Shown here: piece after piece, positions 1,154 to 24,254 of the stretch | How the letters are laid out: each line of letters begins with the position of its first letter | How positions within the stretch are numbered: the stretch's first letter is position 1 | NCBI RefSeq assembly: GCF_002243515.1 | Contig: NZ_CP022657.1 | Coordinates: forward strand, 3,125,001 to 3,189,000 | DNA: 64,000 nt | Reading direction: 5' to 3' | Origin: Tumebacillus algifaecis | GTDB lineage: Bacteria; Bacillota; Bacilli; Tumebacillales; Tumebacillaceae | Position numbers and translations under genes: made by a program | The notes under the pieces: model-generated | Seen by the model: only the letters and a program-made list of their open reading frames with translations | Database searches by the model: none | Told to the model about the DNA's origin: nothing

Positions 1154-1188
1154 GCTACCACCGCGTGTCTCTCGCGGCGACGTCTATT

Positions 1189-4622: not shown

Positions 4623-4641
4623 TGATTCATTGTGAAGTTGG

Positions 4642-4725: not shown

Positions 4726-4737
4726 ATTGGTAACTGG

Positions 4738-5284: not shown

Positions 5285-5328
5285 CAAACAGCCACTTCTG
5301 CGGCACTGACTGCAGAAGTGGCTGTTTG
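5285..5328 (-). terminator. Intrinsic terminator of the GNAT gene
   Basis: CAAACAGCCACTTCTGC pairs with GCAGAAGTGGCTGTTTG, an extended stem with a short loop, 10 nt beyond the stop of the acetyltransferase gene. The arms carry A/T ends on both sides, so it could act in both directions. Confidence 0.75.
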
Positions 5329-5338
5329 ATGAGTTGTT

Positions 5339-5845: not shown

Positions 5846-6238
5846 CTGATTCCCCCCGTTTCCATTTTATTTTTCCATCATAAAACATGGGGAAATATTT
5901 TTGAACAACAAAACACTTCTTTTGATGATACATGGTGGCTTTCATTTGATTGGGGCAGGTCAGCCCTCAAGGTCCCACCTGTTCTAGGGTGTGCTTGCCA
6001 TTGAACTACGTGTTCCTGAGAAATGGTTCCTTCTACAAGTTGAAAGGCACCGATTGCGTGAGCACTTACAGTAGACGCGCCACCAAGGAGAAACAGTTTG
6101 AATTTGCTCAGCATTGCCGCACAATCTCTGACTAGGGCCACACTTTACTTGATGTGCAATTCGATGAGTTCTCCCTTGTACAGCATGGCGCATCTGGCCA
6201 GATCTGTGAAAGAGCGTACTTTCCTTGCACGCTACATG
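5846..6238. other. Intergenic region beyond the dhb operon
   Basis: No convincing gene is seen. On the minus strand a short ORF from about 6105 to 5878 begins MLSKFKLFLLGGASTVSAHA, which looks like a signal-peptide-like N-terminus. It lacks a clear ribosome-binding site and may be decayed sequence. No intrinsic terminator for the siderophore operon was found here. Confidence 0.35.
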
Positions 6239-7690
6239 TTAGCTCTTTACATTTGATGACGAAACGGGAGCCGCTCCAGTCGGAGTCTGTTTGCGCATGG
6301 TGGCAGCCGCATCGGTAGGTCGAATGCGAAACGCGAAGAGCAGGCCTATCAGCAAGAACCCAGCGGCGCCGAACATGGCAACCCGATACGCAGTCAGATT
6401 GGGCTGTGCCACGTCGGACAGATCAACCGTGCTGGTGCCAACCAACGCGAGCAGTGTTGCCAATACGGCCAATCCCATCGCTGAGCCGAGTCGATTCTGC
6501 ACCGTGAACAGCGTGGATGCTCGCCCCATCGACGCTCCGGGAATGTTGGAAAATGATGCGATCTGCACCGCTCCCACCGCCTGCCCCAAGAAGAAGCCTG
6601 CACCAAACATCATCGTGCGAATGATCCATGGGTTGCTTGCCGGACCCACCCAACTCAGGAGCACAAAGGTAGCAGCCGCGCAGGAAAGCGCGAGGATAAT
6701 CTGCCGTCGCGGCCCCAGTCGTGGATAGATCAACGGTACGAGCTGTGAGGAAACCATCAGACCGAGTGCTTCTGGGAAGGTGATCATGCCAGCGTCCAAA
6801 GCGGAGGCATGTAATACATCCTGATACATCAGTGGAAACACATAGAGCATTCCGAGCAAGCCCGCCGCGATGAACAGCGAGATCAATCCTGTAGTTTGGA
6901 ACAACCGTTCCCGAAGCAGGCGCAAATCCAGCATCGGCTGACTGACGCGCAATTCCACGAAAATCAGGGCGGTGATGAAAAGCAGTCCGAGTATACCTGC
7001 ACCCAGTATCTCCGGCGAACTCCAACCTCGTACGGACCCTTGAATTAGCGCATACACGATCATCGCGAAACCAGGAGCAGAGAGCAAGAAGCCTGGTAGG
7101 TCCAGTTTTCCAACGGTCGGCTCCACATGCTCACGAAGAAAGAACCAACCAAACAGGAGCGCCAAGATTCCGACCGGGATGTTGACATAGAACCCCCAGC
7201 GCCACGAGAATTGATCGACGAGGAACCCACCCAAGATCGGGCCCAACGCAGGCGCTAAAGCGATCGGCAAGACCAGATATCGACTGAGCTTCACTCGCTC
7301 TTGCGGCGGGAATGTTCGAAAGAGCATCGCCATGCCAATCGGAGTGAGCAGGCCACCGGCCGCACCTTGCATGATTCGGAAACAAGTCAATGCACCCAGA
7401 CTGTTTGCAAATCCGCAAAGTGCGGACGCCGCGGTGAACAAGCCGATGGCGAGCAAAAACATACGTTTGGTGCAAAACCGATCCCCCAACCACCCTGCGA
7501 CAGGCAGAACTAACGCTAGACTGACCAAGTACCCCACGTTGATCGTACTGGATGCCGAGGTCGGTACTTCAAAGTCTGCGCTGATCGTCCGCAGTGCCAC
7601 GTTGACGATCGTCCCGTCCATGGCGACCATAAACATCGCAACCACATAAAGAATCGGCACGATCCGTTTCGGGTTGAGCCAAAAGCTCAT
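6239..7690 (-). CDS. MFS transporter, DHA2 (EmrB/QacA) family, probable siderophore exporter
   Basis: A 483-residue polytopic membrane protein with about 14 hydrophobic segments. It carries the DHA2-family motif A region [15 protein letters not shown] near residues 66-80 and the antiporter motif C region [19 protein letters not shown] near 143-161. Its ATG overlaps the end of the MbtH-like gene, and it is the last gene of the dhb operon. Export of bacillibactin or its precursor is inferred from that position; the Bacillus subtilis exporter is encoded elsewhere. Specificity cannot be read from sequence. Confidence 0.85.
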
Positions 7691-7914
7691 CGTTTTTCAC
7701 CAGCAGCCGCGCCCTCCGACCGATTCAAGCTAGTCGGTCGCAAATCGCTCCAGTTCGAATTGATAAAATCAAGACACGCTTCCTTGCTCGCTTGCCCGTA
7801 CACAACGTCCCAACCGTCCGGTATAAAAGCGAAGGCTGGCCAGAGTGAGTACTGGCCTTCTTCATTTTTCAATACCAAGTAGATCCCGTTTGTCATTTCA
7901 AATGGATTGATCAT
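7687..7914 (-). CDS. MbtH-like protein
   Basis: A 75-residue MbtH-family protein, a small chaperone-like activator of NRPS adenylation domains. The family pattern is clear: [12 protein letters not shown], then P-DGW, then a region ending SNWSDLRP. It starts inside the 3' end of dhbF (17-bp overlap) with AAAGGAG eight bases upstream. Its stop overlaps the MFS start, so the three genes are coupled. It presumably activates the glycine and threonine adenylation domains of DhbF. Confidence 0.95.
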
Positions 7915-10900
7915 ACACGATCTCCTTTTCGTTTGGTTGTGCGGTTGCTCCCTTCATCTCCCGCAGTTTGGCTGCGATGACCCGCCCTATTTCCACCAGC
8001 GGTTCCGGCTGGCAAAGGTCTTTGTGGCGACAGTGAATGTCGATCTGCTCGATGTTCCCGTCCAGATAAGGGTGCCACGTTTCTGGAGCGATCGGTGTGA
8101 ACCAGTCAGGGATGATCGTCGATCGGAAGAACAGCAGATCCCCCTCATAACGGCGCGGAACATATTCGCCCAAGATCCGCACAGAGTTCACATAGGTTTC
8201 TTTTAAATTTAGAATCGTCTCCCCGTCCAAGCTGGCCAATGCGCTGCCGTCGCTTTGCAAGATTTCGATGGCGCTCGCGAGATCCAACGGTTTATCGCCC
8301 ATGCTATCCGGGTCGTATCCACCGAGTGCAAGCAACGCGATCAAAGCTTCCTCTTCACTTGGCCCTTCATTAATCGGTAGGAAATGGCTCGGGTACGAAT
8401 CGAGCATGACCAGAAGCGACACCTGCTCTCCTCGTTCTTGCAAGAGAACTGCCATCGCATGGACGACATTGCCGCCAAGCGACCAACCGAGCAGGTGATA
8501 GGGACCGTGCGGTTGCACGCTGCGGATCTGTTCGAGGTAATCTTCTGCCATCTCTTCCAACGTCTGCGGAAATCCGGTGCGCTTTGCGATGCCGCGCGCT
8601 TGCAACCCGTAGATCGGAGTGTCCGTCCCGAGATGCTTCATGAGACCTGCATAGCACCAGCTCAGTCCACCTGCCGGATGTACACAAAACAGTGGAGCGT
8701 TGTCTCCAAGCGTTCTGAGTGGTAACAGGACTTCCAGCGCGCTTTGGCTGGTTCCCATCTCTAAAAGTTCAGAGAGTGCCGCAACGGTCGGTGCCTCAAA
8801 CAGGTTGCCAATTCCCAGCTCCAAACCTAAATCTTCGCGAATTCGACTGGTCAAGCGCACCGCCAGCAAGGAATGTCCGCCTAAGTCGAAGAATCCGTCA
8901 TCGATGCTGACACGGGGCACAGCCAACACCTCTGCGAACAGATCACAGAGGATCTCTTCTTGAGGAGTGCGCGGACCACGACCTGACATCGACACCATGA
9001 TCTCCGGAGCTGGCAACCCTTTTCGATCCAACTTGCCGTTCGGTGTCAACGGCAATTCGTCCATCGTCACAAAGGCTGATGGCACCATGTGATCCGGCAG
9101 GCTTGCTGAGACAAAGCGCCGGAGATCGATCGGTTCAGGGCTCGCTTGCGTCTGAGGCACAACATACGCCACCAGCCGCTGATCGCCCGGTTGGTCTTCA
9201 CGAACGATCACCGCAACTTGCGCAATTTCAGCATGCCGGGCCAACGCTGCCTCGATCTCCCCCAATTCGATCCGAAAACCGCGAATCTTGATCTGGTGAT
9301 CGGCGCGGCCTAAGTAATCCAAAGAGCCATCAGCAAGCCATCGGGCCAGATCCCCTGTGCGGTACATACGTGAACCGGGCACACCGTACGGGTCGGCGAC
9401 GAAACGCTCCGCCGTCAAGCCTGGACGCCCCAGATACCCGCGCGCCAAACCCTCACCCGCCACATACATCTCTCCGATCACGCTTGGGGGCACAGGTTGC
9501 AAAGCCCCATCCAGCACATAGATCCGAAGATCTGGGATGCCTCGCCCGATCAAACTGTTCGCTATTTGCAAAACAATATCTCGATCAAGCGGATGATACG
9601 TGACATGCACAGTCGTCTCCGTGATCCCGTACATGTTGATCAGCATTGGCGAATCTTCAGGGTGTCGATCATACCAATCCTCGAGACGGCTCAGGTCAAG
9701 CGCTTCACCGCCAAAAATGACATAGCGCAACGCGAGCGCCTGCCCGGTTTCCTCATCTTCTCGCTCTGCCTGCATCAATTGATAGAAGGCGGACGGAGTC
9801 TGGTTGAGAACGGTCACTCCCTCTTTGGCCAGCAGGAGCAAGAACTCCCTCGGTGAACGACTGATCGTATGCGGTACAACGAGAAGTCTACCGCCATGCA
9901 GCAACGGACCCCAGATCTCCCAAACGGAAAAGTCGAACGCATAGGAGTGGAACATCGTCCAGACATCCTCCGCATGAAAATGGAACCAGTGCTCAGTCGA
10001 AGCGAACAAGCGAACCACATTTTGATGCGGGATGACAACACCTTTTGGTCTGCCTGTCGAACCGGATGTGTAGATGACATAGGCAGGGCTGAGTGGGGAC
10101 AAGTTCGCGAGACGGTCCTTTGCACGTGGATTGGTTTTCGGATACGTATTCAAACGTTCCACGAAGTTCACATCATCGAGCACGATCTTTGGCGTTTCCT
10201 GTGCCGCGGGCAGATTTTCTAGCACTTGTGTGTTCGCGATCATGCAGATCGGCTGGGTATCGGCGAGCATGAATGCAATCCGCTCAGCTGGGTAATCGGG
10301 ATCTAGCGGCAGATACGTACCGCCAGCTTTTAGCACAGCTAACAACCCTACGATCATGTCCAGCGAGCGCGGCAAGGCGAGCGCGACGATCCGCTCTGGC
10401 CCAACACCGCTTGCGATCAACAGATGCGCCAATCGATTCGCCCTTTCGTTCAGTTCTGCGTAACTCAGATCAACATCCTCGCAGGTCACAGCGATCGCGT
10501 CCAGACTGCGTGCCACCTGTTCCTCAAACAACTCCACGAGCGTAGCGTGCGGTCCTACAGTTGGAACTTCGTTCCACTCGTGCAGGATTTTGTGACGCTC
10601 ATCGGGCGCGAGAATATCCAAATGCCCGATCGGTTGCTCAGGGTCGGTTGCAGCAGCCTCTAACAAGCGCAACAGGCGCGACGCGATCGCTTCTGCCGTC
10701 TCTCGTTTGAACAGGTCGGTACTGAACTCCAGCAAGCCCTCGATTCCATCTGGCGACCCGTCACCAGCGCGGCGCTCGCGAAGTTCAACTGTGAGATCGA
10801 ATTTTGAAGCCCCCACGGTGTTCAGTTGCACACTCGTTTGCAATCCTGGCATGTCCAAAGTCGGGTCTGGCGTATTTTGGAACACAAACATGAGTTGGAA

Positions 10901-13900
10901 CAGCGGGTGCCGAGATCGCGAACGAACGGGGTTCAGCACCTCGACGAGCCGCTCAAAAGGTACATCTTGATGTTCATAAGCTTCCAAATTAACGTGACGG
11001 ACGCGATCGACCAGTTCGCGGAAGCTCGGATCACCCGACGTGTCGGTTCGCAACACCAACGTATTGATAAACAGTCCGACAAGATCATCGAGCGCATCAT
11101 CGTTGCGTCCGGCGATCGGACTGCCGATCGGAATATCGGTCCCTGCTCCCAGTCGAGTGAGCAACGCAACCAATCCGGCTTGTAACACCATGAACAGGCT
11201 TGCACGGTTGGCACGAGCGAGCGAAAGGAGACGGCCATGCAACCCAGTGTCGATTTGGAAATCAATCGTCTCACCGCGATAACTCGGGCTCATCGGACGC
11301 GGGTAATCGGTATGCAGCTCCAATTGATCGGGTAGATTTTGAAGCGTTTGCGTCCAGTACGCAAGTTGCTTTGCGATCAAACTTTCCGCATCGTTGTCAC
11401 TGCCCAGCAATCGATTTTGCCAGAGCGCATAGTCTGCATATTGGACAGGCAACGGCTTCCACGCCGGCGACTCTTCTTGGCAACGCGCAGCATATGCGAC
11501 CGAGAGATCACGAGAAAGCGGGTGTAGCGACCAGCCGTCGCCGATGACATGATGCAACAAGATCAGGAGCACATGTTCATCCGGCCCGAGCACGAACAGT
11601 TGCGCGCGAATCGCCGATTCGTTTGCGAGATCGAAACTGTACCGTACCGCTTCTTGCAGCAATGCTGGGAGCTTCGCCTCGCTGGTCTCCACAACATGCA
11701 ACTCCAACTCGGAATCAGCAGGATCGATCACCAACTGATAAGATGTACCCGCCGCATCTGGGAAGATCGTCCGCAGCGTCTCATGTCGAGCCACCACATC
11801 GACGAGAGCCGCTTGCAAGGCAACGCGATTCAGTTCGCCACGCAAGCGCGCCACGAGCGGAATGTTGTAGGTCGGGCTCGGTCCTTCCAAACAATGTAGA
11901 AACCACAACCTCTGCTGCGCAAAAGACAGCGGAATCTCATTCGGTCGCTCCATCGAACACACCGCTGGGCGGGCACTCTGCGCCTGATCGAGTCGTTTGA
12001 CTAACCCTGCTACTGTCGGTGCCTCGAACAGGTGTCCGATGGAAAGTTCGACGCCGAACGCCTCGCGGATGCGAATCATCAGACGACCACCGAGTAGGGA
12101 ATGACCGCCCAGTTCAAAGAACCCATCATCGATCCCCACTCGTGGCATCGAGAGCACTTCGGCAAACAGCTCACAAAGAATCTCTTCTTGTGGCGTCCGC
12201 GGACCCCTACCTGTCGCGATCAGACTGAAATCTGGCGCAGGTAACGCCTTGCGATCAATCTTGCCGTTCGGGGTAAGAGGTAACTCGCTTAGCTTCACAA
12301 TCGCGGAAGGCACCATGTAATCGGGCAAGTATTGCGCGACTACATCGCGGAGTTTTGCAGGTTCGAACGCGTCGTCCGAGGGGGATACGACATACGCGAC
12401 AAGGCGTTTGTCGCCAGGTTGGTCTTCGCGAACCAGCACGGTGACCTGCTCGACACCCGGCTGCTTGGCAAGCAAAGCCTCGATCTCACCAATCTCGATT
12501 CGAAATCCGCGAACTTTTACCTGATGGTCGGAGCGACCCACATATTCCAAGGAGCCGTCTTCCAGCCATTTGGCCAAATCCCCTGTACGGTACATCCGGC
12601 TGCCCGGTGAGCCGAACGGATCGGCTACAAAACGCTCCGCTGTCAAATCCGGCCGATTCAAATACCCTCGCGCAAGCCCTGCACCCGCCAGATAGAGATC
12701 TCCTACCACACCCCGCGGTACGGGCTGTAAACCAGAATCCAAGACGTATGCCTGTGTATTCCAGATCGGGTTACCGATCGGAGGTGTCCCTTCAACTCGG
12801 AACTCTAAGGAAGCAGCCGTAGACCAGATCGTAGTCTCCGTCGGCCCATAGAGATTGGTGATCTGACAGTTCAGTTCCTGCAAAGCAGAGGTGAGTGCGC
12901 TCGGAAGTGCCTCACCGCCGACAAGCACGCGCAAATCGCGGAGAAACTCGGGTCGGTTCGACACTAGCGCTTGCCACAGTGTTGGTGTTGCTTGCATGAT
13001 CGTCGCACCCGATTCAACGATCCTCTCCGCGAGCGCAATCGGCTCCTGTACCACACGTTTCGGAGCGATGGCAACAGAAGCCCCGCTGATGAGCGGAAGG
13101 TACACTTCGAGACCCGATATATCAAACGCAACCGTGGTCACAGCCAAGAGGCGATCCTGTTCGTTCAGTTTGAAGCGATCCTGCATCGACAGGAGGAAGT
13201 TCGTCAAGTTAGCATAGGAAATGACGACCCCTTTAGGTTTTCCGGTGGAACCAGAGGTATAGATCACATAGGCAGGATGGAGCGACGACCGACGCTCGAT
13301 CAGTTCATCATCGCGAAGTCCACAATCTGAGCAACGTTCCAATTTGTTGGCCAGATCAGGCTCATCGAGCACGACCTTTTTGACAGTCATGAGTTCAGAC
13401 AAATTGGCAGCGGTCAGTTGGTTCGTGATCAAGCACAGCGGTTTGGCGTCTTCGAGCACATGCTTGATTCGCTCCCCCGGATAGTCTGGGTCGAGGGGCA
13501 GATATGCCGCACCGGCCTTGAGCACAGCCAACATCGCGACAACCAGCTCCGCCACCCTTGGCAACGCTAGTGCTACGATCTGTTCTGGGCCAACCCCTTG
13601 CTCGATTAGCAGACGGGCCAGTCGGTTCGCACGCGCATCGAGCTCCGCGTAACTCAAGGAAACATCGTCACCAAGCACAGCGATCGCCTGCGGACGACTT
13701 GCCGCCTGTACTTCGAACAACTCCACCACACTGGCCTGCGGTTCAGGATGAACTGTTGCATTCCACTCCACGACGATCTGTTGACGCTCTTCTGGCAAAA
13801 GCAGTTCGAAACTGGCGATCGGCAAGTTCAGATCGACCGAGGAAACCGTTTCGAGGAACTGTAAAAATCGTCGTTGATGTGCCACCAGTTCCTCTGCGCT

Positions 13901-15109
13901 GTAGTTCGCCGGATTCGCGTCCACATCGATCCGCAGGCCGCTCCCATCCGATCGGTCATACACATTGATCGACATGTCATCGACCGGACCCGCCGATAGA
14001 TTGTGCGTGATCCCGCGATGACCGGCAAAGTTCAAGCTGTAATCGAAGGGCATGATGTTGACCTGAGGGCCGAACAAGCGCCGATTGCCACTGAGCAGTT
14101 TCAGCTCGCGCCGCAATTCTTCCTGTCGAAACCCTTGGTGGCGACGCACTTGACGAATCTCAGAGGCGACCTGTGTTGCAAGTTCAGCCAAGCTCATGTC
14201 AGGGCGAACCGCCAAACGCAACGGCAACAAATTCATCACCATGCCCGGAATTTTCAAAGCCACCGAGCCCAGACGACACATCATCGGCAGTCCGAGCACC
14301 ACATCTTGCGCCCCGGTCAGTCGATGAACGTAAGCGGCCGTCGTAGCCAACACGAGATCTGACCAGTTTACCATCATCTTCGTCGCCGCCGCTTTCAAGC
14401 GAGAGGCGCTGGCAGGTGGTAGCGATGCAGTCCGTCTGTGAAAGCTGTGCGATGTTTTCGGCGCGCGATCCGCCAGACTGACAACTTCAGGCTCGTCAGC
14501 AAAACGCTCCAACCAAAAGCTCCGATCTTTCTCACACTGCTCGGATGTACGATACTGCATGTCAGCTTCCAAGATGGAACGATAGGAAGCAAAAGCTCCC
14601 TTGTCGTACGATTCGCCCTGTACGAGCGCCGTATAGAGCCGGGCCACCCGCTGTGCCAAAAGTGCGACACCAAAGCCATCGATCGCGATGTGATGGATTC
14701 GTTGATACCAAAGAAAATGATCCTCCGCCACTTTGAACAAAGCTTGTGAAAAAAGTGGCCCCTGCCTGAGATCCACCGTCTTCGCTAGATCGGCCTTCAT
14801 CCAAGATAGTGCTGCTTCGATCGGTTCCGATTCCGTACTGACATCCACTCGAGATAATGTCCAGTCGGTCTGTGGAGCGATGATCTGCCAAGGCCCTTCA
14901 TGATCCTCACCGAACTGCAGATGCAATGTCTCCGCTTCTGTCACTACCTGTCGCAAGGCCGCCTCGAAAAGTTCCGGATCGACAGAACCCTGAATCTCTA
15001 TGTATTCGCCCGTGTTAAAACTCGGATTTTCAACGTCAAGTTTTTGCGCAAACCAAATCCCTGACTGAGCACCTGTCAGTGACCACTGAACGTTCTGACG
15101 GTTCTGCAA
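7898..15109 (-). CDS. dhbF: Bacillibactin nonribosomal peptide synthetase DhbF (C-A-T-C-A-T-TE)
   Basis: A 2403-residue NRPS, close to the usual DhbF length. Order: condensation domain 1 (HHIAIDG at 139-145); adenylation 1 (about 460-960; [10 protein letters not shown] at 618-627); carrier 1 (GGHSLL, Ser1004); condensation 2 (HHVIGDG at 1186-1192); adenylation 2 (about 1520-2030); carrier 2 (Ser2080); thioesterase (GWSLGG, Ser2210; a likely His near 2359-2362). Reading the ten-residue binding-pocket code by eye gives DILQLGLIW for A1, a glycine code. A2 gives DFWNIGMVH, the classical threonine code. This matches the DHB-Gly-Thr unit that DhbF trimerises and cyclises to bacillibactin. The first condensation domain would accept dihydroxybenzoyl from the DhbB carrier domain. 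Confidence 0.96.
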
Positions 15110-15161
15110 AGTTTTCTACCTCCTTTGAACAAGCAATAGGTTTGCAGTCTGGCACCACAAG

Positions 15162-16076
15162 TCACGCTTTTGCCCCTAGTAGTTCGTACCACTTGGCAAG
15201 CGTCGGTTGTTCTGCCAGTTCCACAAAAGAGACCTCCACCCCACTGCGTCGCCACCGTTCCACCAAACTCATGATTCGAATCGAATCGAGACCTCTGCTG
15301 TTGATTAAGTCTTCATCCTCCCCGAGATCTGCCGAGGAGGTCTGCAACAACTCGGCGACCTGTTCACGCACAAGCGCAGGCGTCAAAAGCTGGTCGTTCT
15401 TCCCGGTTGCGGATGGAGCACCAGACTCGAGCAGATTGGATTGGTTCAACGACTCCATCAGATCTTCGGTCAACATCGTGACCCCACAGCGTTCCGCCAC
15501 GTAGGTCAAAGCCATTTTGTGATGATCGAGCGAGAAATCGGCCACCGCATCGGCCACATAAAACGCTTCTACTTCCTGCATAAATGCATCGCAGGCGGTG
15601 AGCAGACATCCGATATGGGCATACACCCCGCAGATGATCATTTGGTCACGACCCTGTTCATGCAAAATCTCCCTGAGATTCGTTTTTTGGAAACCGCTGT
15701 ATCGCCATTTGGTCAGTTGAAGGTCATTCTCACTCGGGGCCAGATCGGCTACGATCTGTTTTTGATCCGGTACATCCTTGAGGCCCGGTCCCCAAAAATC
15801 GAGTTGCAGACCGCGTTGTTCCGTCGTTTGACCACCCGGTTGTGCCGTATAGATGACCGGAATGCCAAGCGCAACACAATGGCTTTTCAAAGCTTGAATA
15901 TTGGCGATCAGGTCCACGATCGGCGACTCTCCGGCCGTGAACGCGTTAATAAAATATTGCTGCATATCATGGATGAGCAGAACTGCTCGCTTCGGATCGG
16001 GCGTCCACGTCACCTTGTTGCGAGGTAAATCGGATGCCGTTGGCATTTTGTATGGCAAAATGGTAGGAAGAGCCAT
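15162..16076 (-). CDS. dhbB: Isochorismatase with C-terminal aryl carrier domain DhbB
   Basis: A 304-residue bifunctional protein. The N-terminal isochorismatase domain (residues about 1-210; [11 protein letters not shown], then [17 protein letters not shown]) converts isochorismate to 2,3-dihydro-2,3-dihydroxybenzoate and pyruvate. The C-terminal aryl carrier domain (about 225-300) has the phosphopantetheine site RGLDSIRIM. It carries the dihydroxybenzoyl group loaded by DhbE to DhbF. GAGGGAATGAA precedes the ATG. It lies between dhbE and dhbF in the operon, as in Bacillus. Confidence 0.96.
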
Positions 16077-16114
16077 TTCATTCCCTCTTTTCGTTCATTT
16101 TTATAATCATTGTG

Positions 16115-17743
16115 CTATTTTCTGGCACGTGAAATCGTCTGCAGGTTTTGAATGATGGCCTCACGCAACGCTTTTTTGTTCACTTTTCCAACCCCTGTTT
16201 GCGGAAACGAGTCGATAAACTCCATCCGATCTGGGATCTTGTAGGAAGCAAGCCCACGCTCTTGTAGAAACGTTTTGAGCGCAGCTGGTGTCGGAGCTTC
16301 CTCTCGTGGAATTACAAAGGCGCAAGTTCGTTCGCCTAAAAATTCGTCGGGCATCGAGACGACTGCCACATCATGGACAGCCGGATGCGCGAGTAAGTGA
16401 TTCTCCACTTCCTCTGCCGCCACTTTGTCACCACCGCGGTTGATTTGGTCCTTGACCCGCCCTTCGACGACCAAGTAGCCTTGCTCCGTCACTTTCACCA
16501 CATCACCCGTGCGGTAAAAGCCGTCAGGGGTGAACGCCTGTGCGTTGTGCGCGTCCGCTTTGTAGTATCCACGGATGGTATACGGCCCCCGAGTCAACAA
16601 CTGTCCCTCCTGACCTGGTGTTACATCGCGGTCCAACTCATCGACAACGCGAATCTCATCTTGCGCAGAGATCGGTCTGCCCTGCGTATTCACAATGATC
16701 TCTTCCGGATCGTCCAATCGGGTGTAGTTGACCAAGCCTTCCGCCATTCCAAACACCTGCTGCAAGGTACATCCCAGCTCAATGCGAACCCGTCGGGCCG
16801 CCTCCGCACTGAATTTTGCACCACCGACCTGTAACACTTGCAGGCTGGACAAATCGTAACGATGCGATGCGGCCGCCTCGAGCCAGATCAGTGCAAGTGG
16901 TGGCACCAACGCGGTGATCGTCACGCGTTCTTTTTCGATCACCGGAAATGCATCATCTGGGCTGGGACGTGGAACTAACACGACCCGTCCTCCAGCAAAT
17001 AACGTCCCGAGCGTACCCGGCGAACTCAGCGGGAAGTTGTGGGCGACCGGCAGGGCGGCAAGATACACGCTGTTCTCATCCAAACGGCAAATCCCCACAC
17101 TCCCTTCGATACTGTACATGTAATCGTCGTGCGTTCGCGGGATCAATTTGGGCAAACCTGTACTACCACCTGACAGTTGCAGGAACGCGACCTCACTGGC
17201 ATTCACTTCAAACGGCTGTTCGTTCGGTTCTATGTGCAGGTCTTCTAGCGCCACAAACTCCTCTGCTGCGCCGACCACGATCACATGTTGCAAGGTCGAT
17301 ACCTTGCTTTGCACGTTTCTCGCCAATTGTCGATAATCAAATCCGGAATGGACATCGGGAATCACATACGCTACAGCTTCCGTAAACTCGGCAAAATAGG
17401 TGATTTCACTGCTGCGATGCAGAGGAAGGGCAAAAACGGGCAAGGCCCCCAAGCGAAACAGCGCGAAACAAACCTCGAAAAATTCCGCGATGTTCGGCAG
17501 TTGCACGATGACGCGGTCCATCTTTTTGATCCCTGCCTTGTGGAAGCCAGCCGCCAGACGATCTGCTCGCCGATCAAGCTCCGCATAGCTCCACTGCGTA
17601 TCTCCATCGGTGATCGCGATGCGATCCTTATATCGGGCAGCTCGCTCCCGCAACATCTCGCCCAATGTGACTCCGCTCCAAAAACCGGCCGCACGGTAGC
17701 GTTTTGCAAATTCCTCTGGCCACGTGGGACAATTTGCTAACAT
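16115..17743 (-). CDS. dhbE: 2,3-dihydroxybenzoate-AMP ligase DhbE
   Basis: A 542-residue stand-alone aryl-adenylating enzyme that activates 2,3-dihydroxybenzoate with ATP and loads it on the DhbB carrier domain. The sequence follows Bacillus DhbE closely: [36 protein letters not shown] (roughly residues 90-125), the A3 loop [21 protein letters not shown], then YRTGD and [15 protein letters not shown]. The ORF is open for another 71 codons upstream. The start at [12 protein letters not shown] is chosen because GGAGGA precedes it and family length ends there; the extension would run into dhbC. Confidence 0.96.
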
Positions 17744-17760
17744 ATCGATTCCTCCGTTTC

Positions 17761-18969
17761 TCATGAGGTGGTTTCGTTGTTCAGACCCATCGCGTGCAAC
17801 ATCGTGCGAAACTTGGCCGATGTTTCCGCAAGTTCTGCCTCTGGGCTCGATCCAAGGACAACACCTGCCCCCGCATACAAACGCATTGAGCGATCTTCTA
17901 CCTCCGCACAACGGATTGTCACCACCCAATCCCCATCTCCCTGCGAGTTGCACCATCCGATCATCCCGGTGTAAAACTCGCGATCGAAAGGCTCAATTTC
18001 TCCAATGGCCGTTCTGGCCAAATCGGTTGGAGTCCCGCAAACAGCAGGAGTCGGATGCATGGCGAGCGCTACTTCCAGCGACGAGGTAGACGGATCGGAC
18101 AGTTCTCCTGTGATCGTGGTGGATAAATGCCACATGGTCTCGGTGTGCACCAACGACGGTGACTCCGGAACTTCTAACGTTCGGCAAAAGGGTCGCAGAG
18201 CAGCAGCTACCGCATCGATGACCACCGCATGCTCATGCAGGTCCTTCGCGGACGCGAGCAGTGCCTGCGCACGTTTTTGATCCTCGATCGGATCTTTGCT
18301 ACGGGGTGTAGAGCCCGCTAATGGATTGGCAGTTACTGTCATCCCGGTTCGCGATACGAGCAGTTCTGGACTCGCCCCGATCAGCGTTCGCTTCGAATAG
18401 CGGGAATCAGACTCCTCATCGCCAGGCAGATCAACAGCAAACGTATAGCCGTGCTTATTTTTCCGAGCCAAATTTTTCAGCAGTTGGTGGATATCGACAG
18501 GGGTTGTGGAGGTCATTTGCAGAGTTCTGGACAGGACAATCTTGCAAAGCTCACCCGATTCCAGCCGGGCCAAACCCGATTCGACCCCTCGCATAAACTG
18601 CTCTGGCGTAGGAACAGGCTCTATCTCATACGTCGTCGAAGCTGGGGGATTCTCCGCAGCGTTCGCGTCGAAGTGGAGCGGGCCTGCGATTTGAACGGAT
18701 GTCGGCACAACCAACTGAGCAGGTCTGCGGTGATCGAACGGCACAGCACCAACAATGATCGAAACATCTTCCTCAGACTGCTTGGCATGCTTCAACAACT
18801 CATCAACGTGCTCGGCCAACTTACCCGACTCGCCTTTGGGCAATGAGAGCAAAGTTCCTCGCGCCAGCAAAGTGCGAAGCGGGGAAGAGAAGAAAAAGGA
18901 CGATCCGGCCTGATAGTCTTCCAAAAGTTGTGTAGCCTTTTCCGCAGTCGAAACAGTAAATGTAGTCAT
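17761..18969 (-). CDS. dhbC: Isochorismate synthase DhbC
   Basis: A 402-residue chorismate-utilising enzyme that isomerises chorismate to isochorismate, the first committed step of dihydroxybenzoate synthesis. The C-terminal catalytic half shows family signatures: [10 protein letters not shown] near residue 145, [40 protein letters not shown], then FYTGMIGW and a final [24 protein letters not shown] lies upstream of the ATG. Only 24 bp separate it from dhbA and 17 bp from dhbE. Confidence 0.96.
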
Positions 18970-18993
18970 TTTTCCAACCTCTCTCCGTGATTT

Positions 18994-19779
18994 TTAATTG
19001 CCCAGCGTGGCCCCACCGTCAACTCGCAAGTCATGCATCGTGATGTGACTTGCTCGGTCGGAGGCCAAAAAGAGCACAGCGTCGGCTATGTCAGAAGGTG
19101 AGGCCAATTTCTGAAGCGGGATGCCCAGTTTGTACGACGCTAGCGAGCCGACAATGACAGCATCCGCACCATTTGCATCCGTCCACATCGAGCGTTGCAT
19201 CTCAGTATCCGTTGAACCGGGCGACACCACGTTACAGCGAATGTGATGTTGAGCGTTCTCCAGGCCAAGGCATTTTGTGAACATGGTCACCGCCGCTTTG
19301 GAGGATGCATAAGCGGCCATGTGCATGCGCGGCACGCTGGCCGCATTCGACCCGACCGTTACGATCGAACCGGACTGACGCGGCACCATGCGTCGAATGA
19401 CAGAGCGCGACACATAAAAAACCCCCGAAACATTGACCGCAAATGTCTCCTCCCAATCTTCATCGCGAAGCATGTCAATCGGTCCCATTCGCAGCAAACC
19501 CGCGACGTTGACCAAGATTTCAATCGGACCGAGGTCACGTTCGATCTGCTCAACAACCGCTTCTACCGCAACTTTGTCGCTGACATCTAACGGGAAAGCT
19601 GCTGCACGTTTTCCCTCAAGATTTAGTTCCGCCATGATTTGATCGAGTCCAGCAGAGTTTTTATCCACTGCAACAACGAATTCTCCCGCCTCAACAAAAG
19701 CCCGTGCCACCGCCGCACCAATCCCTTGTGCCGCACCTGTTACCAGAACAACTCGGCCTTTATGATCTCGATTCTTCAT
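18994..19779 (-). CDS. dhbA: 2,3-dihydro-2,3-dihydroxybenzoate dehydrogenase DhbA
   Basis: A 261-residue short-chain dehydrogenase that oxidises 2,3-dihydro-2,3-dihydroxybenzoate to 2,3-dihydroxybenzoate with NAD. The nucleotide-binding TGAAQGIG lies near residue 14, NVAGLLR near 89, the catalytic Ser in GSNAAS, and YASSK as the Tyr/Lys pair. The ORF extends 13 codons upstream. The start [15 protein letters not shown] is preferred because AAAGGAAATGAGG lies just before it and the length equals Bacillus DhbA. It is the first gene of the siderophore operon and is preceded by an unusually long leader with a decamer repeat. Confidence 0.95.
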
Positions 19780-19880
19780 GTCCTCATTTCCTTTCGCGAG
19801 ATAAGCGGCTTTTTGCAATCGGCGTGTTGCTCGACAGATCCTTACCGGTTCATTAAGCCCGCTTCAACTGCAAACTGATC

Positions 19881-20340
19881 TCAACTGGTCTCAACTGGTC
19901 TCAACTGGTCTCAACTGGTCTCAACTGGTCTCAACTGGTCTCAACTGGTCTCAACTGGTCTCATCTGGTCTCATCTGGTCTCATCTGGTCTCATCTGGTC
20001 TCATCTGGTCTCATCTGGTCTCATCTGGTCTCATCTGGTCTCATCTGGTCTCATCTGGTCTCATCTGGTCTCAACTGCTCTCATCTGGTCTCATCTGGTC
20101 TCATCTGGTCTCAACTGGTCTCAACTGGTCTCAACTGGTCTCAACTGGTCTCAACTGGTCTCAACTGGTCTCAACTGGTCTCAACTGGTCTCAACTGGTC
20201 TCAACTGGTCTCAACTGGTCTCAACTGGTCTCAACTGGTCTCAACTGGTCTCAACTGGTCTCAACTGGTCTCAACTGGTCTCTACTGGTCTCATCTGGTC
20301 TCATCTGGTCTCTACTGGTCTCAACTGGTCTCAACTGGTC
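19881..20340. repeat. 46-unit 10-bp tandem repeat (TCAACTGGTC) upstream of dhbA
   Basis: Forty-six contiguous, gap-free decamers, all in the same register. In plus-strand order: 8 x TCAACTGGTC, 11 x TCATCTGGTC, one TCAACTGCTC, 3 x TCATCTGGTC, 17 x TCAACTGGTC, one TCTACTGGTC, 2 x TCATCTGGTC, one TCTACTGGTC, 2 x TCAACTGGTC. Nearly all differences fall at positions 3 and 4 of the unit. The unit is not palindromic and has no spacers. In the direction of dhb transcription every frame meets TGA within each 30 bases, so it is not coding there. Each junction creates GGTCTC, about 45 times. A degenerate unit (CAAACTGATC) flanks the left side. The array lies about 100 bp upstream of the dhbA start, inside the presumed operon leader. 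Confidence 0.98.
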
Positions 20341-20433
20341 TCAAGTTCATCTCGAACTCTTCTTTCAAACTTCTCTCTAAGTAAGCAACTCCTCAAAAGG
20401 GGTGATTGTGTAACCTCGTAAAGGCGAGGGGAA

Positions 20434-20613
20434 TTACGGTTTCTCAGTCGGTAAATGCGTGTGTAGCTCACCGAGCGATTCGTTTTGCTTGCGTATGGAG
20501 TGCTTGTGCGATTGCATCGAACGTCGATCCTTTTGCCAAATCGTCACCTCGCATCTGTCGCTTCCCTTGCACCTGAGCCTGAAGACCAGCTGTTCAATGC
20601 CTTGGTGTGCCAC
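20434..20613 (-). CDS. Possible 59-residue leader-encoded protein of the dhb transcript
   Basis: A GTG-initiated ORF of 59 codons (starts VAHQGIEQLVFRLRCKG, ends HTHLPTEKP) lies between the presumed Fur-controlled promoter and the decamer array, on the same strand as dhb. TTAGGAGGG lies about 12 bases before the GTG, a little far. The peptide is rich in Lys, Arg, His and Gln, with no membrane segment and two cysteines. I recognise no family. Its stop codon lies in a hairpin (GTAATTCCCCTCG/CGAGGTTAC) without a T run. It could be a real small gene, a leader peptide or chance. Confidence 0.35.
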   Translation of the reverse strand: MAHQGIEQLVFRLRCKGSDRCEVTIWQKDRRSMQSHKHSIRKQNESLGELHTHLPTEKP

Positions 20614-20978
20614 GTTAGCAGTTGCCCTCCTAACTAAAAAAACTTCAATTGATATTGATTCTCATTACCAATTATAAAATATGCCCCTTGCTTCGAACAT
20701 GGACAATCCCCAGAATTACAGATGGACAATCGGCGTATCTGAACAAAAAAAGACCCATTCCAACGAAGGAGTGCGTCTTAAAAAAAGCTGTAGTCCACTG
20801 TAGTGTTTTGCGACAGTCAGCGGGGAGTCTGCATGTATGCTCTCTCCCGCTTTCCTCTCAACGCTTTGCAAATCCCTATCGAATAACCTTGAGAAACGGC
20901 GAACGTGTCGTTCTCGAAAAAAGGATCGCGCGCTCTGCAGTCGAATTGAGACACCAACGAGAGATTGGAGTGGTAGCA
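20614..20978. other. Intergenic region between the dhb promoter and the NUDIX gene
   Basis: The left end holds the Fur-like site and minus-strand -10 described separately. The remainder, upstream of the NUDIX start, is open in the NUDIX frame but has no ribosome-binding site or recognisable sequence and is treated as non-coding. I could not identify a convincing promoter for the NUDIX gene. Confidence 0.4.
20650..20676 (-). promoter_or_regulatory. Fur-like box overlapping a candidate promoter of the dhb operon
   Basis: GATATTGATTCTCATTACC (20651-20669) matches the 19-bp Fur consensus at about 15 positions. It sits inside the larger inverted repeat AATTG...CAATT. On the minus strand a perfect TATAAT (20671-20676) directly precedes it, so bound Fur would cover the transcription start. 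The -35 is weak. Iron-dependent repression of dhb by Fur is known in Bacillus; assigning this site to dhb, about 870 bp from dhbA, is inference from strand and the lack of a nearer site. Confidence 0.65.
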
Positions 20979-21470
20979 ATGAAAGTGATCAATAAAATTC
21001 GTGCGATGAATCTCGCGTTTCTATTCAACGGTGACGATGTCTTAATGATCCACCGCGGTGCCCACAAAAAGATCTGGCCTAACAAATGGTCAGGTGTCGG
21101 CGGGAATGTCGAGACCCACGAATATCAGAATCTAGCAGAATCTGTGCTACGAGAAATACGGGAAGAAACAGGCATCACTCCCGAGCAAGTTATCGACCTG
21201 TCACAGCGCTATCTCATCTTCCGACAATGGGATGACGAACTTCGACAACTCTACGTGTATTTCGGAAGAACAACGACTCGTGAGATCATTCAGACGGACG
21301 AAGGCGTGCTAAAGTGGATCTCACGAAACGAATGGCTCGATTTGGACTTAATTCCGACGAACCGTGTCATGATTGAGCATTACCTTCAACATGAGCAGGA
21401 GCGCACCGTTTTCATGAGCGTACACACAGACGATGACAGTTCGCCCAACTGGATTCGCATGAATAATTGA
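20979..21470 (+). CDS. NUDIX hydrolase (probable 8-oxo-dGTP diphosphatase-type)
   Basis: A 163-residue NUDIX protein. The box reads GNVETHE, nine residues, then REIREETGI (residues about 43-67), a variant with two extra residues between the Glu and REUXEEXGU. A related Firmicute subgroup has the pattern WSGVGGHIE...REIYEETG. Members hydrolyse nucleoside diphosphates linked to another moiety, often oxidised dNTPs. The longer open frame upstream is rejected; MKVINKIRAM is preceded by GGAG eight bases away. It is transcribed alone and ends in a strong terminator. Confidence 0.85.
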   Translation: MKVINKIRAMNLAFLFNGDDVLMIHRGAHKKIWPNKWSGVGGNVETHEYQNLAESVLREIREETGITPEQVIDLSQRYLIFRQWDDELRQLYVYFGRTTTREIIQTDEGVLKWISRNEWLDLDLIPTNRVMIEHYLQHEQERTVFMSVHTDDDSSPNWIRMNN

Positions 21471-21770: not shown

Positions 21771-21788
21771 CGATAGTGCTTAATAAAA

Positions 21789-21865
21789 TGGTGGGCCCAA
21801 GAAGATTCGAACTTCCGACCTCACGATTATCAGTCGTGCGCTCTAGCCAACTGAGCTATGGGCCC
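21789..21865 (-). tRNA. tRNA-Ile (GAT), copy 1
   Basis: Acceptor arms GGGCCCA/TGGGCCC. The anticodon stem CACGA/TCGTG frames CTGATAA (anticodon GAT). CCA is encoded. A second copy lies at 23126-23202. Confidence 0.97.
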
Positions 21866-21872
21866 TTAAAAA

Positions 21873-21947
21873 TGGAGCGGAAGACGGGATTCGAACCCGC
21901 GACCCTCGCCTTGGCAAGGCGATGCTCTACCCCTGAGCCACTTCCGC
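21873..21947 (-). tRNA. tRNA-Gly (GCC), copy 1
   Basis: Acceptor arms GCGGAAG/CTTCCGC. The anticodon stem TCGCC/GGCGA frames TTGCCAA (anticodon GCC). CCA is encoded. A second copy lies at 23210-23284. Confidence 0.97.
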
Positions 21948-22076
21948 ATACAGGATGTATGCGTCCCGCGTTGCGACAGGACGTCGCGTTCTTAGCGGGG
22001 CTACCTCTGCCCCATGTTGCAACAGGACGTTGCGATCTTAGTGAGGCACCTTTGTCCAACGTTGCTTTTGTTGGAC
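21946..22076 (-). repeat. Four spacer hairpins between tRNA-Ala and tRNA-Gly
   Basis: In plus-strand reading: GCATAC-AGGAT-GTATGC (21946-21962); CCCGC...GCGGG enclosing GCGAC-AGGAC-GTCGC (21965-21999); an outer weak stem enclosing GCAAC-AGGAC-GTTGC (22019-22033); and a simple GTCCAAC...GTTGGAC hairpin (22054-22076). The outer stem CCCGC/GCGGG replaces CCAAC/GTTGG of other copies. The inner GCAAC/GTTGC replaces GCGAC/GTCGC. These are paired, compensatory changes. Confidence 0.75.
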
Positions 22077-22089
22077 AAGTCATGAGAAC

Positions 22090-22165
22090 TGGTGGAGATA
22101 AGCGGATTCGAACCGCTGACCCCCTGCTTGCAAGGCAGGTGCTCTACCAACTGAGCTATACCCCC
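22090..22165 (-). tRNA. tRNA-Ala (TGC)
   Basis: Begins GGGGGTATAGCTCAGTTGG. The anticodon stem CTGCC/GGCAG frames the loop with anticodon TGC. CCA is encoded. Single copy in the array. Confidence 0.97.
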
Positions 22166-22172
22166 GTAAAAA

Positions 22173-22249
22173 TGGCGTGCCCAGAGAGATTCGAACTCCC
22201 GGCCTTTTGATTCGTAGTCAAACGCTCTATCCAGCTGAGCTATGGGCAC
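22173..22249 (-). tRNA. tRNA-Arg (ACG), copy 1
   Basis: Acceptor arms GTGCCCA/TGGGCAC with discriminator G. The anticodon stem TTTGA/TCAAA frames CTACGAA (anticodon ACG, expected to be edited to ICG). CCA is encoded. Confidence 0.97.
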
Positions 22250-22268
22250 ATTTATGAGATTGTAATAG

Positions 22269-22344
22269 TGGTGAGCCATGAAGGACTCGAACCTTCGACC
22301 CACTGATTAAAAGTCAGTTGCTCTACCAACTGAGCTAATGGCTC
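22269..22344 (-). tRNA. tRNA-Lys (TTT), copy 1
   Basis: Acceptor arms GAGCCAT/ATGGCTC. The anticodon stem ACTGA/TCAGT frames CTTTTAA (anticodon TTT). CCA is encoded. The Arg-Lys pair is repeated at 23930-24101. Confidence 0.97.
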
Positions 22345-22357
22345 ACATACAGGATGT

Positions 22358-22392
22358 CCAACATCGCGCCAGGAGATCGCATAGTAAGTTGG
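22358..22392 (-). repeat. Spacer hairpin between tRNA-Asp and tRNA-Lys
   Basis: An outer CCAAC/GTTGG stem is conserved. The inner stem is degenerate (GCG/CGC around CCAGGAGAT). It belongs to the same hairpin family as in the other tRNA spacers and the 16S leader. Confidence 0.6.
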
Positions 22393-22403
22393 GCAAATTT
22401 AAA

Positions 22404-22480
22404 TGGCGGAGCTGACGGGATTCGAACCCGCGGTCTCCCGCGTGACAGGCGGGCATGTTAGGCCACTACACCACAGCTCC
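22404..22480 (-). tRNA. tRNA-Asp (GTC), copy 1
   Basis: Begins GGAGCTGTGGTGTAGTGG. The anticodon stem CCCGC/GCGGG frames CTGTCAC (anticodon GTC). CCA is encoded. First element of a 452-bp block repeated at 23473-23924. Confidence 0.97.
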
Positions 22481-22483
22481 ATG

Positions 22484-22559
22484 TGGTTGCGGGGACAGGA
22501 CTTGAACCTGCGACCTTCGGGTTATGAGCCCGACGAGCTGCCAACTGCTCCACCCCGCG
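22484..22559 (-). tRNA. Initiator tRNA-fMet (CAT), copy 1
   Basis: CGCGGGG/CCCCGCA leaves the C1-A72 mismatch of initiators. Three G-C pairs in the anticodon stem (TCGGG/CCCGA) frame CTCATAA. CCA is encoded. Confidence 0.97.
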
Positions 22560-22585
22560 ATATGATGTTTGGAAATGTCCACCTT

Positions 22586-22600
22586 GCGACAAGACGTCGC
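22586..22600 (-). repeat. Spacer hairpin between tRNA-Val and tRNA-fMet, copy 1
   Basis: GCGAC and GTCGC pair around AAGAC, a loop variant of the ACAGGACGT family. The outer stem is not preserved. Confidence 0.6.
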
Positions 22601-22630
22601 GAACAAAAGCCGACCTTCCTGTTTTAAAAA

Positions 22631-22706
22631 TGGTGGAGGTTGACGGGATCGAACCGCCGACCCTCTGCTTGTAAGGCAGATGCTCTCCCAGCTGAGCTAA
22701 ACCTCC
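22631..22706 (-). tRNA. tRNA-Val (TAC), copy 1
   Basis: Acceptor arms GGAGGTT/AACCTCC. The anticodon stem TCTGC/GCAGA frames the loop with anticodon TAC. CCA is encoded. Confidence 0.97.
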
Positions 22707-22761
22707 ACGTACAGGACGTACCGTGTCCAACGTTGCGACAGGACATCGCGCCCTTAGTTGG
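22706..22761 (-). repeat. Two spacer hairpins between tRNA-Glu and tRNA-Val, copy 1
   Basis: CACGTAC-AGGAC-GTACCGTG is followed by CCAAC...GTTGG (22727-22761) enclosing GCGAC-AGGAC-ATCGC. The inner C/A clash exists only in plus-strand reading; as minus-strand RNA the same position is a U-G wobble and the stem holds. Confidence 0.72.
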
Positions 22762-22778
22762 GCAACCTCTAAAGAAAA

Positions 22779-22855
22779 TGGTGACTCGTACGGGATTCGA
22801 ACCCGTGAATGCCGCCTTGAAAGGGCGGTGAGTTAAGCCGCTTCTCCAACGAGCC
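22779..22855 (-). tRNA. tRNA-Glu (TTC), copy 1
   Basis: Begins GGCTCGTTGGAGAAGCGG. The anticodon stem CCGCC/GGCGG frames CTTTCAA (anticodon TTC). CCA is encoded. Confidence 0.96.
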
Positions 22856-22856
22856 A

Positions 22857-22931
22857 TGGCTGGGGAGGAAGGGATCGAACCTTCGCATGACGGAGTCAAA
22901 GTCCGTTGCCTTACCGCTTGGCGACTCCCCA
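22857..22931 (-). tRNA. tRNA-Gln (TTG)
   Basis: Acceptor arms TGGGGAG/CTCCCCA. The anticodon stem ACGGA/TCCGT frames CTTTGAC (anticodon TTG). CCA is encoded. Single copy. Confidence 0.97.
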
Positions 22932-22936
22932 ATGTG

Positions 22937-23013
22937 TGGTAGCGGCGGAGGGACTTGAACCCCCGACCCACCGGGTATGAACCGATTGCTCTAGCCAACT
23001 GAGCTACACCGCC
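22937..23013 (-). tRNA. Elongator tRNA-Met (CAT)
   Basis: Begins GGCGGTGTAGCTCAGTTGG. The anticodon loop TTCATAC gives CAT. The body resembles Bacillus elongator Met rather than the lysidine-modified Ile2 type, which I cannot exclude completely. CCA is encoded. Confidence 0.9.
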
Positions 23014-23016
23014 ACA

Positions 23017-23109
23017 TGGCGGAGAGAGGGGGATTCGAACCCCCGAGACGTTTTAGGCGCCTACACGATTTCCAATCGTGCTCCTTCGACCAAACTCGGA
23101 CATCTCTCC
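23017..23109 (-). tRNA. tRNA-Ser (GGA)
   Basis: Long variable arm, about 93 nt with CCA. The anticodon stem CACGA/TCGTG frames TTGGAAA (anticodon GGA). Confidence 0.96.
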
Positions 23110-23125
23110 AGAAGAAATATTGAAA

Positions 23126-23202
23126 TGGTGGGCCCAAGAAGATTCGAACTTCCGACCTCACGATTATCAGTCGTGCGCTCTAGCCAACTGAGCTATGGGC
23201 CC
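23126..23202 (-). tRNA. tRNA-Ile (GAT), copy 2
   Basis: Identical by eye to the copy at 21789-21865. It is followed by the same tRNA-Gly and spacer. Confidence 0.97.
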
Positions 23203-23209
23203 TTAAAAA

Positions 23210-23284
23210 TGGAGCGGAAGACGGGATTCGAACCCGCGACCCTCGCCTTGGCAAGGCGATGCTCTACCCCTGAGCCACTTCCGC
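23210..23284 (-). tRNA. tRNA-Gly (GCC), copy 2
   Basis: Identical by eye to the copy at 21873-21947. The spacer beyond its 5' end is also conserved for about 60 bp. Confidence 0.97.
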
Positions 23285-23365
23285 ATACAGGATGTATGCG
23301 TCCCACGTTGCGACAGGACGTCGCGTTCTTAGCGGGGCTACCTCTGTCCCGCGCTGCAACAGGAC
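23283..23365 (-). repeat. Spacer hairpins between tRNA-Phe and tRNA-Gly
   Basis: GCATAC-AGGAT-GTATGC is followed by a GCGAC-AGGAC-GTCGC inner hairpin whose outer arm is CCCAC against GCGGG. Then comes a truncated element (CCCGC...GCAACAGGAC) that loses its 3' half at the Phe gene. It looks like the breakpoint of the duplication. Confidence 0.65.
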
Positions 23366-23378
23366 TATTTTTGAAAAA

Positions 23379-23454
<76 letters not shown>

Positions 23455-23472
23455 ATATTGAGATGAAAAAAG

Positions 23473-23549
23473 TGGCGGAGCTGACGGGATTCGAACCCGC
23501 GGTCTCCCGCGTGACAGGCGGGCATGTTAGGCCACTACACCACAGCTCC
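23473..23549 (-). tRNA. tRNA-Asp (GTC), copy 2
   Basis: Identical by eye to the copy at 22404-22480. CCA is encoded. Confidence 0.97.
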
Positions 23550-23552
23550 ATG

Positions 23553-23628
23553 TGGTTGCGGGGACAGGACTTGAACCTGCGACCTTCGGGTTATGAGCCC
23601 GACGAGCTGCCAACTGCTCCACCCCGCG
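23553..23628 (-). tRNA. Initiator tRNA-fMet (CAT), copy 2
   Basis: Identical by eye to 22484-22559, including the C1-A72 mismatch. Confidence 0.97.
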
Positions 23629-23654
23629 ATATGATGTTTGGAAATGTCCACCTT

Positions 23655-23669
23655 GCGACAAGACGTCGC
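23655..23669 (-). repeat. Spacer hairpin between tRNA-Val and tRNA-fMet, copy 2
   Basis: GCGAC-AAGAC-GTCGC, the same as at 22586-22600. Confidence 0.6.
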
Positions 23670-23699
23670 GAACAAAAGCCGACCTTCCTGTTTTAAAAA

Positions 23700-23775
23700 T
23701 GGTGGAGGTTGACGGGATCGAACCGCCGACCCTCTGCTTGTAAGGCAGATGCTCTCCCAGCTGAGCTAAACCTCC
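23700..23775 (-). tRNA. tRNA-Val (TAC), copy 2
   Basis: Identical by eye to 22631-22706. CCA is encoded. Confidence 0.97.
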
Positions 23776-23830
23776 ACGTACAGGACGTACCGTGTCCAAC
23801 GTTGCGACAGGACGTCGCGCCCTTAGTTGG
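23775..23830 (-). repeat. Two spacer hairpins between tRNA-Glu and tRNA-Val, copy 2
   Basis: CACGTAC-AGGAC-GTACCGTG is followed by the full two-stem element (CCAAC/GTTGG at 23796-23830, inner GCGAC/GTCGC). This is the most complete copy of the family. Confidence 0.75.
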
Positions 23831-23847
23831 GCAACCTCTAAAGAAAA

Positions 23848-23924
23848 TGGTGACTCGTACGGGATTCGAACCCGTGAATGCCGCCTTGAAAGGGCGGTGA
23901 GTTAAGCCGCTTCTCCAACGAGCC
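23848..23924 (-). tRNA. tRNA-Glu (TTC), copy 2
   Basis: Identical by eye to 22779-22855. CCA is encoded. Confidence 0.96.
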
Positions 23925-23929
23925 ATACA

Positions 23930-24006
23930 TGGCGTGCCCAGAGAGATTCGAACTCCCGGCCTTTTGATTCGTAGTCAAACGCTCTATCCAGCTGAGCTAT
24001 GGGCAC
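23930..24006 (-). tRNA. tRNA-Arg (ACG), copy 2
   Basis: Identical by eye to 22173-22249. Together with tRNA-Lys it forms a 172-bp block equal in length to copy 1, with one spacer substitution. Confidence 0.97.
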
Positions 24007-24025
24007 ATTTATGAGATTGTAACAG

Positions 24026-24101
24026 TGGTGAGCCATGAAGGACTCGAACCTTCGACCCACTGATTAAAAGTCAGTTGCTCTACCAACTGAGCTAATGGCT
24101 C
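24026..24101 (-). tRNA. tRNA-Lys (TTT), copy 2
   Basis: Identical by eye to 22269-22344. CCA is encoded. Confidence 0.97.
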
Positions 24102-24103
24102 AC

Positions 24104-24195
24104 TGGCGGAGGAAGAGGGATTCGAACCCCCGAGACGGTTACCCGCCTACTTGATTTCGAGTCAAGCTCCTTCGACCGAACTCGGACATTCCTCC
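24104..24195 (-). tRNA. tRNA-Ser (CGA)
   Basis: Long variable arm. The anticodon stem CTTGA/TCAAG frames CTCGAAA (anticodon CGA). CCA is encoded. First gene of the array. Confidence 0.96.
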
Positions 24196-24254
24196 GTGAT
24201 ACATCATGCGTTTCTTTCATTGTTTTGCTGTCGGCTCTCGCGGCGACAGGTATT

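Follow-up and report, generated by a model that had tools for sequence, protein, structure and literature searches.

In Burkholderia pseudomallei, hundreds of tandem arrays, most of them intergenic and most with units of 6-9 bp, change in length at rates of 5e-5 to 2e-4 per generation, or about 1e-4 (PMC1853098). By analogy, these VNTRs appear to be the closest known situation to the short-unit arrays in the chromosome of Tumebacillus algifaecis, among which is a 46-copy decamer array near the gene dhbA (the dhb array). Both genomes carry many unrelated, short, non-triplet units that are repeated head to tail, mostly between genes and in some cases near ORF starts (PMC1853098). They differ in that the arrays of B. 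pseudomallei usually have 4-21 copies, compared with 46 in the dhb array, and are denser (70-102 arrays/Mb at looser settings) and in many cases duplicated, and in that their length variation has been measured, whereas the dhb array is known from one genome (PMC1853098). The TAACTGA heptamers of Beggiatoaceae, cyanobacteria and Bacteroidetes, which reach 43 copies in some species, are likewise intergenic tandem direct repeats with AACTG inside the unit (PMC4679880). However, TAACTGA is one unit found at 169 sites, mostly a few nucleotides before start codons, whereas here each array has its own unit and the dhb array lies ~100 bp before an ATG that has a ribosome site (PMC4679880). Thus, the dhb array shows neither reuse of its unit at many loci nor a position that replaces the ribosome site. 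Promoter contingency repeats, such as the nadA TAAA, hifA/B TA and porA G tracts, also lie near gene control regions, but they are located between or beside promoter elements or in frame, whereas the dhb array is ~310 bp from the Fur box (PMC3899988).

Features of the window, which is the whole 64,000-nucleotide stretch of chromosome analysed, are as follows:
19881-20340, 46-unit 10-bp tandem array (sequence, TRF), reading TCAACTGGTC and variants on the plus strand and GACCAGTTGA on the dhb-sense strand
19862-19880, degenerate seed-like stretch CTTCAACTGCAAACTGATC at the dhbA-proximal end of the array, partly out of phase (sequence; TRF extends the array to 19873)
18994-19779, minus strand, dhbA, encoding an SDR of the 2,3-dihydro-2,3-dihydroxybenzoate dehydrogenase type, with its ATG at 19779 and AAAGGAAATGAGGAC ahead
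7898-18969, minus strand, rest of the operon: isochorismate-synthase-type, AMP-ligase, isochorismatase-carrier and NRPS genes (dhbC, E, B, F order)
20434-20613, minus strand, 59-codon GTG ORF after AGGAGG, in the leader between the Fur box and the array (by sequence inspection)
20651-20669, Fur-box match GATATTGATTCTCATTACC, the presumed iron-regulated operator, with 3 mismatches to the 19-bp consensus (0 such matches expected)
20671-20676, minus strand (dhb strand), TATAAT, a candidate -10 element adjoining the Fur box, with no good -35
20979-21470, plus strand, divergent Nudix hydrolase gene, conserved in the genus
1234-20921, segment of ~19.7 kb with a LodA-like gene, an FAD oxidoreductase gene, tRNAs, an MFS gene, the dhb operon, the array and the Fur box, absent at the orthologous site of the sister species (G002)

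Direct parsing resolves positions 19881-20340 into 46 full 10-bp units (27 TCAACTGGTC, 16 TCATCTGGTC, 2 TCTACTGGTC and 1 TCAACTGCTC), all in phase and without an indel. They occur in the order TCAACTGGTC x8, TCATCTGGTC x11, TCAACTGCTC x1, TCATCTGGTC x3, TCAACTGGTC x17, TCTACTGGTC x1, TCATCTGGTC x2, TCTACTGGTC x1 and TCAACTGGTC x2. TRF, by which no other array is detected in the 64-kb window, reports positions 19873-20344 with a period of 10, 47.2 copies, 97% matches, 0% indels and a score of 804. The description in the first-pass annotation of 46 uninterrupted decamers with three point variants, in which no unit has gained or lost a base, is therefore accurate. Its observation that the variants are arranged in blocks, as expected from slippage or unequal exchange, is also confirmed: identical units form 9 runs compared with a shuffled mean of 25.5 (p ~5e-5), which indicates that the variants spread through duplication of adjacent units. 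A chance origin of the array is excluded. The array would have begun as a short local seed next to dhbA, for which the partly decayed CTTCAACTGCAAACTGATC stretch could be the remnant, and would have lengthened through replication slippage, unequal exchange or both. Assemblers commonly misjudge the length of long tandem arrays, and the array or its copy number could accordingly have been invented or mis-sized by the assembler. Such an artefact is extremely unlikely because of the internal variant blocks and the single-contig assembly; the unique flanks and the presence of arrays of several periods also argue against it.

The array was originally placed between a presumed iron-regulated promoter and dhbA, and this placement agrees with the Fur box at 20651-20669 and the dhbA ATG at 19779, the dhb promoter itself being a predicted one. 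The array lies on the dhbA side of the Fur box and ends ~100 bp before the ATG of dhbA, which has its own ribosome site. Because the Fur box and the adjoining TATAAT are located upstream, the array is very probably within the dhb leader, given the predicted transcription start. The Fur box upstream of dhbA and the dhb gene content are those of a Fur-regulated dhb operon with a putative promoter; transcription of the 5′ leader of this operon would probably cross the array, which would add ~460 nt to the leader and most likely has little or no dedicated regulatory function. No strict sigma-70 match is present in 19700-21100, and the best relaxed promoter match at the Fur-box site, TTGATA-18-TATAAA from 20649, points in the direction of the Nudix gene, not of dhb. 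Relaxed plus-strand sigma-70 matches repeated along the array were rejected as an effect of its periodicity. A search of the leader and array against Rfam at a relaxed threshold detected no RNA family. A coding function on the plus strand, where none of the three frames is interrupted by a stop within the array, was rejected because no ORF with a start is listed there, and the dhb-sense frames across the array have recurrent stops. The 59-codon GTG ORF, judged from its sequence, might be a leader peptide or nothing.

On the minus strand, the SDR gene (dhbA) is followed by genes for a chorismate-binding enzyme, an AMP ligase and an isochorismatase with a carrier domain, and then by a 2403-codon NRPS gene and an MFS gene; the three smaller proteins were identified by Pfam and the NRPS from its translation. 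The best matches to dhbA across the class (399 genomes) reach 69% identity, and the six other genomes of the family contain no close match (E below 1e-50). In the sister species, a match to window positions 1-1233, which cover the 5′ portion of a 16S rRNA gene together with the region upstream of it, is followed by ~100 bp and then by a match to 20922 onward, including the Nudix gene (positions 9587 and 9483 of contig L089 match window positions 1233 and 20922). Insertion of the ~19.7-kb segment here and loss in relatives are both possible, and gain is favoured because the presence of the segment is patchy. The segment is bounded by the 16S 5′ end of an rrn operon and the conserved Nudix gene, and two tRNA genes (Leu, Thr) lie inside it. 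At 1476-4345, a LodA-type L-lysine epsilon-oxidase gene is directly followed by an FAD oxidoreductase gene (Trp-halogenase-like), an arrangement that resembles a lodA-lodB pair. A large tRNA cluster at 21776-24200 comprises two partly duplicated, near-identical halves with four Bacillaceae-1 RNAs interleaved.

The 46 near-identical sites could in principle serve as a protein-binding ladder, or as an RNA or DNA sponge, in which a factor recognizes each decamer and is titrated by, or polymerizes along, the array. The commonest unit also gives TTGAGA on the dhb strand, which agrees with the -35 hexamer at 5/6 positions, although no promoter-like hexamer pair spans the array on this strand in strict or relaxed sigma-70 scans. 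The suggestion in the first-pass annotation that a bound protein would meet the same helix face throughout does not hold: at 10.5 bp/turn, a period of 10.0 bp drifts by ~17 degrees with each unit, which adds up to a whole turn after 21 units, and the 46 sites therefore have no common face. The array occurs once in the 4.517-Mb genome, which has no second tandem site of the motif, and a search for a tandem pair of the decamer elsewhere with up to 3 mismatches gave only a few scattered 3-mismatch matches, similar in number to the control. Lone decamers outside the array are only modestly more frequent than a reversed-pattern control (31 vs 18), an excess that base and codon composition could produce. 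A ladder or sponge is thus highly improbable.

The first-pass annotation also held that the array should not fold on itself as RNA. This was only partly correct, because two G-U pairs allow CAGUUG to pair with itself (-1.5 kcal/mol for a two-unit hairpin), although the transcript is overall less structured than shuffled sequences (-80.7 kcal/mol for the dhb-sense array vs -117.9 for shuffles). A leader anti-repeat on the minus strand, AGCTGGTCT at ~20583-20591, is able to pair with a unit and seems to do this in the leader fold, but was discounted as evidence because ~0.2 exact complements of 7 bases would be expected by chance in a sequence of this length. In the RNA model, accessibility of the dhbA ribosome site is 0.65 with the array and 0.54 without it, which suggests that the array does not mask this site. 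These values bear on the proposal that the array is a contingency locus, in which slippage shifts the number of units and, by way of leader length, RNA stability or termination within the leader, the expression of dhb, to give heterogeneous siderophore production. Consistent with this proposal, the array lies between the Fur box and dhbA, a rate of about 1e-4 length changes per generation is known for this array type in another genome (PMC1853098), and promoter repeats that alter expression have bacterial precedents (PMC3899988). Nevertheless, contingency loci are in frame or at or between promoter elements, whereas the array is neither coding nor between the predicted promoter hexamers, and the modelled accessibility hardly shifts. 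The proposal is therefore unlikely.

A TRF sample of 1.63 Mb of the same chromosome, which includes the window and represents 36% of the genome, was screened for arrays of period 5-16 with 5 or more copies and a match of 85% or higher. Twelve arrays with periods of 6-13 bp passed (for example, 8 bp x 27.8 copies, 8 x 20, 13 x 14, 10 x 21, 7 x 19.7 and 8 x 11.9), among which the dhb array, at 46 copies, is the longest. The other 11 have unrelated units of 6-13 bp in 5-28 copies, and 10 of them are intergenic; in all, 11 of the 12 arrays are intergenic, although one of these starts in the final codons of an ORF, and the twelfth is coding. The units of the other arrays are as follows:
AGAGTGAA, 27.8 copies
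GGCTGAAA, 20 copies
GACGAAT, 8.4 copies
TTGCTACTCG, 5.2 copies
CTACTGAGGT, 21.3 copies
CCTTATTGCTTTG, 14.1 copies
CAACTGCT, 9.8 copies
TTGGTGAA, 9 copies
TGGTAA, 15.5 copies (coding)
AGCAGGTA, 11.9 copies
TACTCAA, 19.7 copies

The loci of these 11 arrays are L034, L035, L045, L060, L068, L072, L129, L130, L132 and L152. An ACTG/ACTC core is common to 6 of the 11 intergenic units; it was spotted after the fact and is given no weight. Extrapolation from the sample gives ~30-33 short-unit arrays in the whole chromosome, and because unrelated arrays occur throughout the noncoding DNA, the dhb leader can be regarded as simply holding one of them. No common binding factor explains a set of arrays with units unrelated in sequence and different in length, which is a further point against a ladder or sponge. 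According to ORF-based gene calls, five of the arrays (L045, L060, L068, L072 and L152) are in convergent 3′-3′ gaps. Between convergent genes, no promoter or 5′ leader is expected. The presence of at least 11 other arrays with unrelated 6-13-bp units, five of them in such gaps, speaks against a dhb-specific role, and similar arrays in convergent gaps and beside unrelated genes of the same genome also weigh against copy-number tuning of dhb.

Comparison with other genomes suggests that the expansion is particular to this lineage. Under the same rule, 1.15 Mb of four related genomes (G001, G002, G009 and G011) contains no intergenic array and one coding array locus; the excess in the present chromosome has a binomial p of ~0.004 without the window and 0.019 against single-contig comparators only. 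The dhb array unit is absent from 60 relatives, and none of three tested units (that of the dhb array, AGAGTGAA and TACTCAA) occurs in the 13 other genomes of the order. The 3.7-kb loci (1.5-kb flanks) of three other dhbA genes have no array, and the decamer repeat is absent from 25 other dhb-bearing genomes; the lack of an equivalent at other dhb loci is a further argument against copy-number tuning. No viral contig carrying the repeat and, in the open-access literature, no published report of this array were found. Short tandem runs of GACCAGNNGA, which have the same 8 fixed decamer letters and a period of 10, occur in Actinobaculum suis, Actinoplanes, Bacteroidetes MAGs and others. They differ in having 3-10 copies in unrelated taxa and contexts, several of them inside GC-rich dispersed repeats, and were rejected as relatives of the dhb array, their likeness at the sequence level being probably convergent. 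In Bacteroidetes contigs L025, L026, L027 and L028, a 14-bp GTGGTCGAGCGGCG repeat is joined to GAGACCAGCC decamers; this GTGGTCGAGCGGCG/GAGACCAGCC element is a GC-rich, intergenic-type repeat common to several Bacteroidetes contigs.

Because the genome contains many unrelated arrays, several of which can control nothing, the dhb array is most likely an ordinary slippage minisatellite and not an iron switch. The near-identical head-to-tail units without indels, the block-wise variants and the other unrelated, mainly noncoding arrays are the properties of VNTRs, and the array is very likely a slippage-grown minisatellite of this type in a noncoding leader, one of an estimated ~30 in the chromosome and near-neutral for dhb. 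Short-unit arrays would have expanded independently in this lineage, mostly in noncoding DNA. Against this passenger reading, the array is the longest sampled and occupies the leader of an operon that is used conditionally, a setting in which an effect of copy number would be visible to selection; moreover, single decamers number 31 against 18 in the control, and the TRF scan covers 36% of the genome of one isolate. It is quite improbable that the array is a length-variable rheostat in the leader that generates cell-to-cell siderophore differences and that the many arrays of the lineage supply such tuning generally. The present evidence gives no support for a functional link between the array and iron uptake.

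The dhb array is a true, long and well-formed minisatellite, ordinary in kind, and a repeat that is striking when read alone becomes explicable once the rest of the genome is examined. It is likely to be useful for strain typing, and offers an inexpensive way of asking whether a 460-nt leader repeat matters at all. A chromosome with many independent short-unit arrays, compared with almost none in the sampled relatives, raises the modest question of why arrays have expanded in this one lineage.
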